In this document: in pieces, positions 30,978-36,537 of the stretch
How positions within the stretch are numbered: position 1 is the first letter of the stretch
Layout of the letters: each line of letters begins with the position of its first letter
DNA from: Methylobacterium sp.
GTDB lineage: Bacteria; Pseudomonadota; Alphaproteobacteria; Rhizobiales; Beijerinckiaceae
Assembly (NCBI RefSeq): GCF_019750675.1
Contig: NZ_JAIEOF010000117.1
Location: forward strand, 1 to 37,837
Direction of reading: 5' to 3'
DNA length: 37,837 bases
Position numbers and translations under genes: made by a program
Notes under the pieces: model-generated
Databases searched by the model: none
What the model saw: the letters and a program-made list of their open reading frames with translations, nothing else
What the model was told of the DNA's origin: nothing

Positions 30978-32114
30978 ATGACCCTCGACGTCCAGATCCC
31001 CAACCTCCAAGATTTCCGCCGCATCGTCATCAAGGTCGGCTCGGCCCTCCTCGTCGACCGGGCGCGCGGGCGCCTGCGCCATGCCTGGCTCGCCGCGCTC
31101 GCCGAGGACATCGCCGACCTGCACGCCAGCGGGGCCGACGTGCTCGTGGTCTCCTCCGGCGCGATCGCGCTGGGGCGGACGGTGCTAGGGTACCCGCCCG
31201 GCACCCTGCGGCTTGAGGAGAGCCAGGCGGCCGCGGCCGTGGGGCAGATCGCCCTGGCCCGGCACTGGTCGGAGGCGTTGGGGCATCACGGCATCGCGGC
31301 CGGGCAGATCCTGGTCACGCCGCAGGATACCGAGGAGCGCCGGCGCTACCTCAACGCCCGCGCCACCGTGCTCAAGCTCCTCGAAGTGCGGGCCGTGCCG
31401 GTCGTCAACGAGAACGACACGGTGGCGACTTCCGAGATCCGCTACGGCGACAACGACCGCCTCGCCGCCCGCGTCGCCACGATGATCGGCGCCGACGTGC
31501 TGGTGCTGTTCTCGGATATCGACGGTCTCTACACCGCTCCGCCGCACACCGACCCGGAGGCGCGCCACCTGCCTCTGATCGAGCGAATCACCCCCGAGAT
31601 CGAGGCCATGGCCGGCGGCCCGGCTTCGGAGCTCTCACGCGGGGGCATGCGCACCAAGGTCGAGGCGGCCAAGATCGCCGCCAGCGGCGGCACCCACATG
31701 ATCATCGCCGACGGACGCGAGAAGAACCCGCTGCGCACCATCCTGCGGGGCGGCCGCTGCAGTTGGTTCCTGTCGGGCTCCAATCCGGTCACCGCCCGCA
31801 AGAGCTGGATCGCGGGTTCGCTCGAACCACGCGGCATCCTCACGGTGGATGCCGGCGCGGCGCGCGCCCTTCAGGGCGGCGCGAGCCTGCTGCCGGTGGG
31901 CGTCACCAAGGTTCAGGGCGGCTTCGGGCGCGGCGACGCCGTGGTGATCCGGGACGAGGCCGGACGCATTCTCGGGCGCGGCCTCGTGGCCTACGACAGC
32001 GACCAGGCCGTGCGCATCATCGGCCGGCCGAGCCGCGAGATCGCGGATCTCCTCACCCATCCGGGCCGCGCCGAGATGGTGCATCGCGATGACCTCGCCA
32101 TGGTGGGGGAATAG
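30978..32114 (+). CDS. proB: Glutamate 5-kinase
   Basis: ProB phosphorylates L-glutamate to gamma-glutamyl phosphate, the first step of proline synthesis. It has 378 residues from ATG 30978. The amino-acid kinase domain shows [44 protein letters not shown] and [16 protein letters not shown], and a C-terminal PUA domain of about 80 residues follows (~280-370). The start is chosen so that [13 protein letters not shown] precedes the fold; open frame upstream overlaps obgE. It stands beside proA, 46 bases away, so the two are probably one unit. Confidence 0.96.
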
Positions 32115-32160
32115 CTGATCTGTCAGCGGCAATGCTTGTTTTTACGGCACGCGACGTGGC

Positions 32161-33522
32161 ATGACGGATTCCGAACACATGGCGGCCGCGCCCTTTTCCG
32201 CGACGGTCGCGAGGATGAAGGCCGTGCCCGTTCTGAATCTGCGAAGCGATTTTGCGCCCCCCGGCGATCTCTCCGAGGAGATGAACGCCATCGGCCGGCG
32301 CGCCCGCGCCGCCGCTCGCCAGATCGCCCTCGCTCCGGCCCACACAAAGGACACGGCCCTGCGCCTCGTCTCCGAGCGCCTGCGGGCCGAGCGGGACGCG
32401 ATCCTGGCCGAGAACGCCCGCGACGTGGAGGCGGCCCGCGCCGCCGGCCAGACCCAGGCGCTCATCGATCGGCTCACCCTGGATGCGGGGCGCCTCAACG
32501 GCATCGCGGATGCTGTCGCCAAGATCGGCGCGCTGCCCGATCCCGTCGGCCGGCAGGTGGCCGCGTTCGAGCGGCCGAACGGCCTGCTCATCGAGCGCAT
32601 CGCCGTGCCCCTCGGCGTCATCGGCGTGATCTTCGAGAGCCGCCCCAACGTCACCGCCGATGCCGGCGCGCTCTGCCTCAAGGCCGGCAACGCCGCGATC
32701 CTGCGGGCGGGCTCCGACAGTCACCGCTCGGCCATGGCCATCGCCCGGGTCATGCGAGCCGGGCTGGAGGCCGCCGGCCTGCCCGGTGATGCCATCCAGA
32801 TCGTGCCGACCCGTGATCGCGCGGCCGTCGGCGCCATGCTGTCGGGCCTCGACGGCGGCATCGACGTCATCGTGCCCCGCGGGGGGCGCGGCCTCGTGGA
32901 GCGGGTGCAGGCGGAGGCCCGCGTGCCGGTCTTCGCCCATCTCGACGGCATCTGCCACGTCTACGTGGCGGCGGGCGCCGATCTCGACATGGCCCTCAAG
33001 GTCGTTCTCAACAGCAAGATGCGCCGGACCGGGATCTGTGGCGCCGCCGAGACGCTGCTCGTCGACCGGGCCTGCGCGGAGACCCACCTCGCCCCCCTGG
33101 TCAAGGCGCTGCTCGATTTCGGCTGTGCCGTGCGCGGCGATGCGGCCACCCAGGCCGTCGACGGCCGGGTGACGGCCGCGAGCGAGTCCGACTGGCGCAC
33201 CGAGTACCTCGACGCCATCATCTCGGTGCGGGTGGTCGACGGGCTCGACGCGGCCATCGAACACATCGAGACCAACGGCTCGCACCACACCGACGCGATC
33301 ATCACGGACGACATGGCGGAGGCGACGCGCTTCCTCGCGGAGGTCGATTCGGCCATCGTGACCCACAACGCCTCGACGCAGTTCGCCGATGGCGGCGAAT
33401 TCGGTTTCGGTGCGGAGATCGGCATCGCCACCGGGCGCATGCATGCGCGCGGGCCGGTGGGTGTCGAGCAACTCACGACCTTCAAGTATCGCGTCCACGG
33501 GAACGGGCAGACGCGCCCTTGA
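32161..33522 (+). CDS. proA: Glutamate-5-semialdehyde dehydrogenase (gamma-glutamyl phosphate reductase)
   Basis: ProA reduces gamma-glutamyl phosphate with NADPH to glutamate-5-semialdehyde, step two of proline synthesis. It has 453 residues from the first ATG; the family is usually ~420, so a later ATG at 32215 (MKAVPVLN) could be the true start. Conserved motifs: [42 protein letters not shown], catalytic Cys293 in [13 protein letters not shown], and [11 protein letters not shown] at the end. It follows proB, and its stop is 27 bases before the nadD start. Confidence 0.96.
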
Positions 33523-33544
33523 CGCTCGCCCGTCCGACCCGGGA

Positions 33545-33570
33545 CCCCGATGCGCCTTGACGCATCGGGG
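33545..33570 (+). promoter_or_regulatory. Perfect 10-bp hairpin containing the nadD start codon
   Basis: CCCCGATGCG (33545-33554) and CGCATCGGGG (33561-33570) pair perfectly around CCTTGA. The nadD ATG (33550-33552) is inside the 5' arm. As RNA it would hide the start codon. It is also where a terminator for proA could be, but no T-run follows. Confidence 0.75.
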
Positions 33571-34173
33571 CCGGCGCGCCTGCCTTCCGTCGCGCCGGGC
33601 CTGCGCATCGGCCTCTACGGCGGTTCCTTCAATCCGGCCCATCTCGGGCACCGGCATGTCAGCCTCGTCGCCCTGAAGCGGCTTCGCCTCGACCGGGTCT
33701 GGTGGATGGTCACCCCCGGCAATCCGCTGAAGGACCGGGGCGAACTCGCGGCCATCGACCGGCGGGTCGAGCGGGCGTCACAGATCGCCGATCATCCCCG
33801 GATCGCGGTGACGGATTTCGAATCACGGATCGGTGCGCGCTATACCCGCCAGACGCTTGGTTTCCTCACCCGCCGCCATCCGAATCTGCGCTTCGTCTGG
33901 ATCATGGGCGCCGATAGCCTCGCGACATTTCATCGCTGGCAGGGATTTTCCGAGATCGCCGGCCTGATGCCGATGGCGATCGTGGATCGGCCGGGCTTCA
34001 CCTTGACGGCACCGGCCGCGCGGGCAGCCCGGGCGCTCGCGCCCTGGCGCATCCCCGAGACGGAGGCGGCGAGCCTGCCCGACCGTGCGCCGCCCGCCTG
34101 GGTCTTCCTGCACGGGCCCCGTTCGACCCTCTCCTCGACGGCGCTTCGCGCCAAGCCGGGCGGCCCTGCATAG
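33550..34173 (+). CDS. nadD: Nicotinate-nucleotide adenylyltransferase
   Basis: NadD joins ATP and nicotinate mononucleotide to form deamido-NAD, in the de novo NAD pathway. It has 207 residues. The nucleotidyl-transferase motif GGSFNPAHLGH is at 24-34; WIMGADSLATFHRWQ and the late SSTALR motif are conserved. The first 17 residues are not conserved, and no ATG, GTG or TTG lies between ATG 33550 and the fold, so the ATG within the hairpin is probably the start. It is followed by rsfS, as in many bacteria. Confidence 0.95.
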   Translation: MRLDASGPARLPSVAPGLRIGLYGGSFNPAHLGHRHVSLVALKRLRLDRVWWMVTPGNPLKDRGELAAIDRRVERASQIADHPRIAVTDFESRIGARYTRQTLGFLTRRHPNLRFVWIMGADSLATFHRWQGFSEIAGLMPMAIVDRPGFTLTAPAARAARALAPWRIPETEAASLPDRAPPAWVFLHGPRSTLSSTALRAKPGGPA

Positions 34174-34236
34174 GCCGCACATGGAAAAGGCAAGCGCCAC
34201 GTTCCACTTTATCTCTATCCGGGGTACGATGACGGG

Positions 34237-34680
34237 ATGACGATGGCGATAGCAGGAACCCAGACGCTGAACGACGCGGCCCACACCGGAGTCCCGAGCT
34301 CCGAAGAAACCACCAACCGGAAGATCGACGATCTCCGGAGCCTCGCCCTCGAATGCCTCGAGGACATGAAGGCCGAGGAAACGATCGAGATCGACCTGAT
34401 GGGCCGAACCTCCCTGGCCGACACCATGATCATCACCTCGGGCCGCTCGCAGCGCCATGTCGGCGCGATCGCGGATCGTGTCCTTCAGGAGATGAAGACC
34501 AAGGGCCTCGGCACCGCCCGGGTCGAGGGTCTGCCCGCCTGCGACTGGGTGCTGATCGATGCCGGCGACGTCATCGTGCACATCTTCCGCCCCGAGGTAC
34601 GGGGTTTCTACAACCTCGAGAAGATGTGGGGCGCCGACCGTCCCGCCGCCGCGCTTCCCTCCGCCGCCTTGGCCGAGTGA
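34237..34680 (+). CDS. rsfS: Ribosomal silencing factor RsfS
   Basis: RsfS binds L14 of the 50S subunit and prevents subunit joining when nutrients are short. It has 147 residues; the conserved core begins after ~28 variable residues and includes DLMGRTSLADTMIITSGRSQ, VEGLPACDWVLIDAGDVIVH and FRPEVRGFYNLEKMWGAD. An alternative start at MAIAG is two codons in. It follows nadD (63 bases) and precedes rlmH (16 bases). Confidence 0.96.
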   Translation: MTMAIAGTQTLNDAAHTGVPSSEETTNRKIDDLRSLALECLEDMKAEETIEIDLMGRTSLADTMIITSGRSQRHVGAIADRVLQEMKTKGLGTARVEGLPACDWVLIDAGDVIVHIFRPEVRGFYNLEKMWGADRPAAALPSAALAE

Positions 34681-34696
34681 GAGCCGGCGCCGCCTC

Positions 34697-35197
34697 GTGC
34701 GCTTGCTCGTGGCGGCGGTCGGCCGCCTGAAGCCCGGTCCCGAGCGCGATCTCGCCGCGCGCTACCGCGAGCGTGCCGCGCAGGTCGGGCGCGGGCTCGG
34801 CTTCACCGCCTGCGATATCGCCGAGATTCCGGAGAGCCGAGCGCGCCGCGCGCCGGATCGGGCCTCCGAGGAGGGCGCGGCCATCCTGGCGCAGGTCGCC
34901 ACCGGCGCGGTCCTGGCAGTCTACGACGAGCGGGGACGCTCGGACCTCGCCAGCGAGACCATCGCGGCGCGAGTCGGCGACTGGCGCGATGCGGGCCGTG
35001 CCGCCCTCGTGCTGGCCATCGGCGGCGCCGACGGCCTCGACCCGGCGGTACGGGCGCGGGCCGAACTGAGCCTCTCCTTCGGAGCCGCGACCTTGCCGCA
35101 CGGGCTTGTGCGCGTCCTGGCCCTGGAGCAGGTGTATCGCACGCTGACGATCCTGGCAGGCCACCCGTACCACCGCGGAAACCTCGACGAGCGATGA
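34697..35197 (+). CDS. rlmH: 23S rRNA pseudouridine-1915 N3-methyltransferase RlmH
   Basis: RlmH methylates pseudouridine 1915 of helix 69 in 23S rRNA using SAM. It has 166 residues from a GTG (34697). The SPOUT knot shows AIGGADGLD (107-115), LSLSFGAATLPHGLVRVLAL (124-143), then LEQVYRTLTILAGHPYHRG (143-161). The family is ~155 residues. The open frame upstream of the GTG overlaps rsfS, so I rejected it. The stop overlaps the next start as ATGA. Confidence 0.95.
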   Translation: MRLLVAAVGRLKPGPERDLAARYRERAAQVGRGLGFTACDIAEIPESRARRAPDRASEEGAAILAQVATGAVLAVYDERGRSDLASETIAARVGDWRDAGRAALVLAIGGADGLDPAVRARAELSLSFGAATLPHGLVRVLALEQVYRTLTILAGHPYHRGNLDER

Positions 35198-36537
35198 CTC
35201 CGGCGATCCGATTCGGACGAGATTGGGCAAAGCGCGGGCTGCTGCTGCTGGCGGCCTGCCTCGTCGCGTCGGGTACGCCCCGCGCCGAGGCCCCGGCGAC
35301 GCCGGACGCCGTTCAGAAGGCCCTGGACGAGAAGACCCGCCGGGCCGAGAACCTGAAGCGCATCGAGGAGGCCCTGGCCGCCAGTACGGGTGCGCGGGCG
35401 AAATACGAGGCCGAGATCGCGGCGATCGGCGGCGACCGGGCGAAGCTGAATACGGCGCTCCTCGATGCCACCCGTCAGGCGCAGGCCACCGAGGTGCGCA
35501 TGAGCCGTCTCGAGGAGCGCCTGAAGACGCTCGGCGCCAGCGAGACCGCCCTGCGGCGCTCCCTCGATTCCCGGCGCGGGGTGATCGCCGAGATCCTGGC
35601 CGCGCTCCAGCGCATGGGGCGCCGACCGCCGCCGGCCGTGCTGGTACGGCCCGAGGACGTGCTGGCGGTGATCCGCACCTCCATGCTCCTCGGCGCGGTG
35701 GTGCCGGAATTGCGTGGCGAGGCTGAGACCCTAGCCGGGGACCTCTCCGAACTCGTGCGCCTCAGGGGCCTGATCGCGGCGGATCGCGAAGGTTTGACCA
35801 GCGATCTCGCGGGCTGGGCGCGGGAGCAGCAGCGCCTGAATGCCCTCATCGCCACGCGCCGTACCCGGCAGGCCGAGGTCGAGAGCGGATTGGCGGCCGA
35901 GCGCACACGCACGGCCGAACTCGCCGTGCAGGCCCGCAGCCTCAAGGACCTTCTCGACCGGATGGAGGGCGAGGTCGCCTCCGCCCGGCGTGCGGCCGAG
36001 GAGGCGCGGGCCGCCGAGACCCGCGAGGCCCGCGCGACGCAGGAGCGCTTCGCGGCGGCCGGCGCACGCGACCCGGCCCGGCTGGCGCCCAAGGTGCGTT
36101 TCGTGGATACCCGTGGCGACCTGCCCCGTCCGGTCAGTGGAGCCACCCTGCGCAGCTTCAATCAGCCCGATGGAAACGGCGGCACGACCCGCGGCATATC
36201 GCTCGCGACCCGGCCGAAAGCCGTCGTTTCGTCACCGGCCGATGGTTGGGTGTCCTTCGCCGGGCAGTTTCGCTCGTACGGGCGACTCTTGATCATCAAC
36301 GCCGGCGATGGCTACTATCTCTTGTTGGCGGGGATGGACCAGATCAACGTCGAGGTCGGCCAGTTCGTGCTCGCGGGCGAGCCGGTGGCGGCGATGGGGG
36401 AGGGCGGCGCCAGCCCCGACCCGGCGGGCGGTGATCGCGGCGATCCGGTCTTATACGTCGAGTTCAGAAAAGACGGCGGCTCCATCGACCCGGAGCCTTG
36501 GTGGGCGAAAAGCCCCAGCGAGAAGGTTCGCGGATAA
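35194..36537 (+). CDS. EnvC-like murein hydrolase activator with coiled coil and LytM-type domain
   Basis: A 447-residue exported protein: a hydrophobic export segment at ~14-31, long coiled coils at ~33-115 and ~175-285 rich in Ala, Glu and Arg, then a C-terminal LytM/M23-like domain (~320-440: PVSGATLRSFNQPDG, VVSSPADGWVSFAGQFRSYG, LLIINAGDGYYLLLAG). The zinc-binding histidines of active M23 peptidases are not seen (GISLAT and YYLLLAG where relatives have HxxxD and HxH), which fits EnvC, an activator of amidases rather than an enzyme. It sits between rlmH (ATGA overlap) and ctpA (TAATG overlap), an arrangement found in many alphaproteobacteria. Confidence 0.9.
   Translation: MTPAIRFGRDWAKRGLLLLAACLVASGTPRAEAPATPDAVQKALDEKTRRAENLKRIEEALAASTGARAKYEAEIAAIGGDRAKLNTALLDATRQAQATEVRMSRLEERLKTLGASETALRRSLDSRRGVIAEILAALQRMGRRPPPAVLVRPEDVLAVIRTSMLLGAVVPELRGEAETLAGDLSELVRLRGLIAADREGLTSDLAGWAREQQRLNALIATRRTRQAEVESGLAAERTRTAELAVQARSLKDLLDRMEGEVASARRAAEEARAAETREARATQERFAAAGARDPARLAPKVRFVDTRGDLPRPVSGATLRSFNQPDGNGGTTRGISLATRPKAVVSSPADGWVSFAGQFRSYGRLLIINAGDGYYLLLAGMDQINVEVGQFVLAGEPVAAMGEGGASPDPAGGDRGDPVLYVEFRKDGGSIDPEPWWAKSPSEKVRG

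Follow-up and report, generated by a model that had tools for sequence, protein, structure and literature searches.

In tap-repA of plasmid R1, a short ORF is translated through the stem that hides the next start, at which ribosomes then reinitiate. This resembles the arrangement that we propose here between proA and nadD of Methylobacterium, and differs from it in that it serves plasmid copy control with an antisense RNA and in that tap is not known to be joined to an upstream gene. The mgtC-mgtQ-mgtB system of Salmonella, as described in passages of PMC8092293, is similar in that a tiny intercistronic ORF controls a second gene whose ribosome-binding site is hidden by structure; mgtQ lies 51 nt past mgtC, has a strong Shine-Dalgarno sequence of its own and acts through alternative stem-loops in a 219-nt spacer, whereas the mini-ORF before nadD has its start on the proA stop codon and its end within nadD. 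As with mgtQ, a small ORF recurs between the two genes in relatives (55 of 111 genus genomes, in two clades); by direct reading, there is no AGGAGG-like stretch just upstream of its TTG at 33519, and hence no Shine-Dalgarno sequence of its own at that place. Gene pairs with NTGA (-4 nt) overlaps that are coupled by termination-reinitiation (passages of PMC12548453 and PMC10666635) are comparable in that both joints of the relay proposed below are likewise short overlaps, but here the second partner is a 13-codon delivery ORF rather than a gene, and the second joint is an 11-nt overlap within a hairpin. Engineered short leader ORFs (passages of PMC12548453) likewise deliver ribosomes and remove the effect of structure over the next start; the ORF here occurs in nature and would, under the relay, receive its ribosomes from proA. 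In its working the relay would be a form of the known coupling by termination and reinitiation, with a leader ORF as the intermediate. None of the papers listed in literature searches treats, by title or abstract, a proA-nadD mini-ORF or proA-nadD coupling in Methylobacterium.

The window (the whole 37,837-nt stretch of DNA that was analysed) belongs to a 4.92-Mb Methylobacterium assembly and contains the gene order proA, nadD, rsfS (Table 1; rsfS by a profile match of 6e-33). Among the matches listed, the top named records are a Methylobacterium MAG (RYN_510), M. gossipiicola and sp. Leaf112, and the nearest relative may be absent from them. nadD is present in 111/111 genus genomes, in all of which we read its start region, and in 193 of 199 members of the family sample. 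Its start codon in the window lies within the hairpin CCCCGATGCG-CCTTGA-CGCATCGGGG. The initial annotation had described this as a perfect 10-bp hairpin with a 6-base loop at 33545-33570, holding the sole plausible nadD start in its 5' arm, with the proA stop 27 bases upstream; each of these points is correct to the base, and the hairpin at the nadD start is real. From the in-frame stop to the conserved GGSFNP motif, the ATG at 33550 is the single ATG, GTG or TTG.

Table 1. Coordinates of features at the proA-nadD junction, and the species with CTG 57 nt before GGSFNP
Feature	Position	Strand	Remarks
proA (glutamate-5-semialdehyde dehydrogenase)	32161..33522	+	NCBIfam 3.2e-170; stop TGA 33520-33522; upstream gene of the proposed relay
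TTGA, with proposed mini-ORF start TTG	33519..33522	+	4-nt overlap with the proA stop
Candidate mini-ORF, 13 codons plus stop	33519..33560	+	TTG ACG CTC GCC CGT CCG ACC CGG GAC CCC GAT GCG CCT TGA
Outer two stem pairs	33542..33572	+	33542-33543 with 33571-33572, past bulged A33544; longer in some relatives
Hairpin	33545..33570	+	arms 33545-33554 and 33561-33570, loop 33555-33560, 0 mismatches; nadD start codon inside
nadD start codon ATG	33550..33552	+	in the 5' arm; sole in-frame ATG/GTG/TTG before the conserved fold
Mini-ORF stop TGA	33558..33560	+	in the hairpin loop, nadD +9..+11
nadD (nicotinate-nucleotide adenylyltransferase), 207 aa	33550..34173	+	NCBIfam NF000843, 2e-78, above cut-off
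CTG-at-57 species (i)			L068, L069, L071, L076, L079, L080, L083, L084
CTG-at-57 species (ii)			L085, L088, L092, L093, L095, L104, L128, L132

The stem alone has a folding energy of -19.4 kcal/mol, which none of 200 shuffles equalled. No other perfect stem of 10 bp or more with a loop of 3-8 nt occurs in the window, five mononucleotide shuffles of which gave 2, 0, 0, 0 and 0. A related chromosome contains 51 such stems in 400 kb, about 4.8 per window length (stems longer than 10 bp are possibly counted more than once), so that a stem per se is unremarkable. Judged by predicted folds, what is rare is its placement over a start codon. The nadD start has a minimum free energy (MFE; -15..+36) of -28.1, at about the 1st percentile of 314 background starts (mean -13.5), which were called by a simple heuristic in the 400 kb of the related chromosome with a selection biased toward Shine-Dalgarno-like sites. 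Relative to synonymous recoding its z is -2.3 (1.6th percentile of background), and its start codon has an unpaired probability of about 0 against a background median of 0.46; no background start combined an MFE of -30 or lower (-25..+40) with an unpaired probability below 0.01. Synonymous recodings fold equally well in 1.7% of cases for the window (P <0.05 in 11 of the 23 species of its start class, defined below), and shufflings of the 15 upstream bases do so in 13.5% (P <0.05 in 7 of the 23); the wider 141-nt region is weakly special (z -1.5). By prediction, then, the downstream start codon is hidden without coupling, being paired in a fold at the 1st percentile of MFE.

The candidate mini-ORF that runs from the proA stop into this hairpin recurs in two clades. 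Twenty-three species share the window's start position, 72 nt before GGSFNP (L078 was moved out of the class, hence 23), and all of them have ATG (17) or GTG (6) at the nadD start. A T stands at nadD +9 in all 23 although CTT is a rare leucine codon (6%), and a third base without variation occurs in just 1 of 54 comparable fourfold-degenerate columns; we attribute the invariance to the TGA of the mini-ORF, which occupies another frame there. The TTGA of the loop is likewise invariant, in 15/15 rows of the stem alignment. Eighteen of the 23 have a mini-ORF that ends at +9, across spacers of 21, 27, 30, 33, 36, 39 or 45 nt (L044 has CTG on the proA stop, but an adjoining ATG in the same frame). 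In the other five an imperfect tandem repeat adds 14 nt to the spacer, and two mini-ORFs are chained there by TGATG, the second ending at +9. This 14-bp repeat, observed in L043, L047, L006, L050 and L051, runs from the proA stop (TGATGCGGCCTGCC in L043) and doubles the mini-ORF start as TGATG. The second clade, 30 species with nadD starts of the form GTG CGG CTG A.., has spacers of 19, 25, 34, 40 and 43 nt and a mini-ORF that ends at nadD +8. With L053 and L054, where the end lies at +21 of the assumed start and at the same distance from the fold, endings thus stand at +8 in 30 species, +9 in 23 and +21 in 2, over spacers of 19-45 nt in clades of 25 and 30 species; the peptide sequence is not conserved. 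The 25-species set was defined by start position and the 30-species set by the +8 ending, and each is one clade, with no other members, of a 111-species tree that rests on 187 columns; species counts are linked by descent.

An open mini-frame is uninformative as evidence, because base-shuffled spacers are open in 83-88% of cases, and openness is the rule in the other frames as well. In a single species the geometry is likewise near chance, since 6 of 27 background pairs with similar gaps show a like ending, nadD itself included. The clades were compared instead for phase, meaning the frame of the spacer, with spacer counts drawn from 107 of the 111 species (L007, L014, L018 and L114, with spacers >140 nt, were omitted) and the proA stop set by hand for L086, L087, L100, L116 and L123 and inferred for L046, whose locus begins 52 nt upstream of the match. 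The two clades together show at least 14 changes of spacer length (10 + 4) and two of phase (2 + 0), giving a binomial P of 8e-5 for phase keeping on the assumption that two thirds of indels shift phase. Both phase shifts fall in the repeat-bearing subclade, where chained mini-ORFs bridge the repeat. The nadD-rsfS spacer served as a control: over 18 of the 25 species it had 8 length and 6 phase changes (Fisher P 0.008), and over 28 genus loci it had 17 and 9, a proportion nearer half than two thirds (7 of 35 long loci were without an rsfS anchor). The proA-nadD spacer in the rest of the genus had, by subtraction, 29 length and 18 phase changes (Fisher P 0.004). The TGA of the 30-species clade (+8..+10) is fixed, and +11, which follows the A of this TGA as second base of a nadD codon, changed at least nine times through all four bases; since +4..+10 are all invariant, nothing marks the TGA off on its left and the right border alone is informative.

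These patterns are best read, in our view, as a termination-reinitiation relay in two steps in which the hairpin prevents independent nadD initiation, a reading that we hold with moderate confidence. The hairpin would hide the nadD start from free 30S subunits; ribosomes finishing proA would reinitiate at the overlapping TTG, translate 13 codons across the 5' arm, stop at the loop TGA, step back 8 nt and start nadD, making NadD synthesis dependent on proA translation. Judging by footprint size, a ribosome at the loop TGA would cover about -9 to +21 of nadD. The span of the hairpin (-5..+21) is close to this, and the hairpin would thus prevent free initiation while lying open beneath the ribosome that makes the delivery. 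Short overlaps are present between proA and the mini-ORF (TTGA) and between the mini-ORF and nadD (stop at +9..+11), and not between proA and nadD directly (27 nt); through the NTGA overlap and the 11-nt overlap the relay would remove the gap. Both translation of the mini-ORF and the arrival of its ribosomes at nadD are steps that we infer from comparative sequence analysis. If this is correct, coupling of two genes has been kept by a tiny ORF across a gap too wide for reinitiation, and the features of the ORF that are kept are its start, phase and stop only. Such ORFs would escape annotation and tests of peptide conservation, and phase-preserving spacer indels could detect them in any operon.

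An unlikely but coherent alternative is that the hairpin is a plain throttle, setting a fixed low level of nadD initiation while the mini-ORF goes untranslated. Stem conservation does not need the mini-ORF, and nadD starts are unusually structured across the genus and often GTG or CTG: mean start MFE is -25.0 (z -1.75) in the 23 species of the window's start class and -21.4 (z -0.88) in 63 species of the 54-nt class, compared with -13.5 (z +0.61) for background. NTGA, moreover, is also retained in species whose ORF stops well short of nadD. In a count that excludes L083 (TAG stop), the base before the proA TGA is C in 148 of 227 background genes and in 8/8 species whose spacers measure 5-7 nt. 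Where the spacer has 10-75 nt, the base is C in just 6 of 98 species and G, T or A in the other 92. An ATG, GTG or TTG accordingly stands on the proA stop in 92/98 species with spacers of at least 10 nt, 0/8 with short spacers and 0/4 with long insertions, a pattern that we count in favour of the relay. NTGA is nonetheless not specific to it: outside the two clades, 38 of 43 species with spacers of at least 10 nt carry it, and the ORF ends within the first ten bases of nadD in 4 of the 38 resolved among those 43. It ends 14-15 nt before the nadD start in 15/16 CTG species, and in nine other species outside the two clades it has 3 codons and ends 30-57 nt before the start. The throttle leaves unexplained both the phase-preserving indels of the spacer and the fixed TGA with its rare codon. 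Among the four species with more than 140 nt between proA and nadD, which represent about two independent events, three have C before the TGA and one a TAG stop. Structure at their nadD starts is weaker (-14.5 to -18.3, where 91 others average -22.2), a contrast that also favours the relay, although start structure in the CTG group is weak too (-18.2). Two of the four, L007 and L014, have a gap of about 145 nt with a common stretch, TTGCTTCGCTGCGCTCGCAATGACGG, that looks like an inserted repeat and may have uncoupled the pair.

The stem itself was compared over the 16 ATG-start species of the window's start class, window included, as 15 distinct rows (the identical L033 was omitted); L044 also has ATG but groups with the six GTG-start species and was kept outside the 16. 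In these rows 92% of the cells of the 10-bp stem are paired, against 27-46% in slid controls. Both sides have changed at two pairs, with wobbles kept: -5/+21 is CG in nine rows, UG in two, GC in one, UA in one and broken in two, and -4/+20 is CG in ten, GC in one, UG in one and broken in three. Shuffles matched the observed paired percentage in 7/500 cases, the covariation score in 2/500 and the number of pairs with both-side changes in 39/500; given this last figure and a small RNAalifold covariation term (-0.31), the covariation is modest. The compensatory changes that the initial annotation had proposed as a check are thus present at two pairs in a stem that is largely kept, without amounting to strong covariation. 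Rare GCA or GTA (usage 3% and 2%) occupies codon 5 in 7 of the 16 species, its A facing the U of the start codon, and the stem of L049 extends to 16 pairs. The start codon is hidden (unpaired <0.1) in 11 of the 16 in the -25..+40 fold; L040, L042 and L046 keep the stem in part, and wider folds of L038 and L041 leave the start codon open. Conservation, which the initial annotation had made a condition of its idea, therefore extends to most of the 16 and not to the Methylobacteriaceae as a whole: 7 of the 23 start-class species, the subclade of L044 and the six GTG-start species, are without the window's stem, and other clades show other folds. Two species without it, L043 and L044, have the start codon predicted in another hairpin on its 5' side, a possible replacement.

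That an ancestral coincidence was simply inherited, with no function, is decidedly improbable. The abundance of perfect 10-bp stems in a relative (up to 4.8 per window length) and the modest outcome of the shuffle control speak for it, as does the sensitivity of a neutral simulation, run on the clade tree from a perfect ancestor, to the rate assumed. At the rate best reproducing spacer divergence, the simulation reached the 63 of 70 paired cells of the non-coding arm (-5..-1) in 0/4000 runs (P <0.001), but P rises to 0.022 at a third of this rate and to 0.17 at a sixth. Against mere descent, divergence elsewhere in the spacer is close to saturation (identity 0.38 at -25..-13, with 14 representatives) compared with an identity of 0.69 at -5..-1, and two-sided changes have occurred. 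The stem over the start codon thus appears to be under selection in related species. The 30-species clade has a different predicted fold that also holds the start codon, with the TGA of the mini-ORF in its loop and 97.5% of cells paired over 27 distinct rows. In the register tested it shows no covariation, and RNAalifold prefers another register, again with the TGA in the loop and with one two-sided pair (3/27 rows, 6 broken); selection on this second fold is therefore not demonstrated.

Ribosomes at the proA stop might also scan to or open the hairpin and start nadD directly, with no part for the mini-ORF. The adjacency of the genes suits such direct coupling, which is likely in the eight species with 5-7 nt between them, and studies cited in the review PMC12548453, to go by passages of it, found coupling over wider gaps; the review notes exceptions and that rules of spacing vary. 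At this junction the stem begins 22 nt past the proA stop, and according to passages of PMC10666635, six E. coli and Haloferax pairs lose nearly all reinitiation once the gap is about 20 nt; relatives' spacers reach 39-45 nt, and phase conservation would have no explanation. We give direct coupling only a slim chance here. Coupling to proA, as the initial annotation had proposed, is still the most likely use of the structured start; what finds no support is direct arrival of ribosomes from the proA stop.

Programmed frameshifting from the mini-ORF frame into nadD, which would give NadD a longer N-terminus, is very improbable. The mini-ORF ends NCT-TGA or CTT-TGA beside the nadD frame, recalling the prfB site CTT-TGA-C, and L039 has CTTTGAC; the shift required would nevertheless be +1 in one clade and -1 in the other, the codon before the TGA may be CCT, GCT, ACT, CTT or GGC, so that the pattern of a prfB-type +1 site was not found, and all 23 start-class species retain ATG or GTG where nadD begins. 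Species with GCT-TGA, moreover, are expected from tRNA logic to re-pair poorly. A ProA-NadD read-through fusion was rejected: the frame is common to most of the 25-species clade, but 3/25 have further in-frame stops and the other clade has a different phase.

Least credible of all is a DNA or transcription element (a regulator palindrome, or the terminator overlapping the start that the initial annotation had offered as its alternative), for which the recurrence of the arms between convergent ORFs might speak, and against which stand the lack of a U tract after the stem (CCGGCGCGCC follows on its 3' side), the lack of any intrinsic terminator call on the + strand of 31800-35800, and the many kept pairs that are G-U wobbles (9/15 rows at +2/+15) and break DNA dyad symmetry. 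No Rfam family matched at its gathering score; the one sub-threshold match, on the other strand, scored 20.8 bits against 95. The second copy of the arms CCCCGATGCG/CGCATCGGGG, with another loop, lies at G000:C325:9566-9591 (L001 1501-1526), a terminator-like place between two ORFs. With two occurrences in the assembly, the arms were rejected as a genome repeat and judged a coincidence.

A coupled nadD start (NTGA) like that of Microvirga is the probable ancestor of the mini-ORF start in the proposed relay. In 7/7 named Microvirga loci, an NTG on the proA stop lies in the nadD reading frame and begins the entire gene. Arrangements vary in other genera, for which 41 of 56 loci were resolved and 15/56 gave no proA-nadD pair. 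A fuller reading, which we offer tentatively and would not yet back over its alternatives taken together, is that the ancestral nadD start on the proA stop was cut off by a frameshift, and that its first dozen codons became a delivery ORF whose stop lies in the loop of the hairpin with the new start, kept in phase across some 55 Methylobacterium species. NAD synthesis would then depend on translation of a proline-pathway gene, and unannotated relay ORFs might bridge other operon gaps too wide for direct coupling. With proA and nadD close, relayed or widely separated, the genus offers a natural experiment on whether coupling acts by RNA unfolding or by ribosome reinitiation.

Sixteen species have no ATG, GTG or TTG at 72, 57 or 54 nt before GGSFNP, the usual start positions of nadD in the others, and all have CTG at 57 (Table 1); L095 has none of the three codons anywhere from the in-frame stop to the fold, and L128 has a TTG at 21 only. 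A CTG start for nadD is possible in these 16. Finally, in a 400-kb stretch (G211:C1:1000001-1400000; L218-L237), five further co-directed gene pairs with gaps of 15-60 nt have an ORF that begins at the NTG on the upstream stop (CTG in two) and ends at the next start, four exactly overlapping it; these are candidate relays, at a rate that may be chance.
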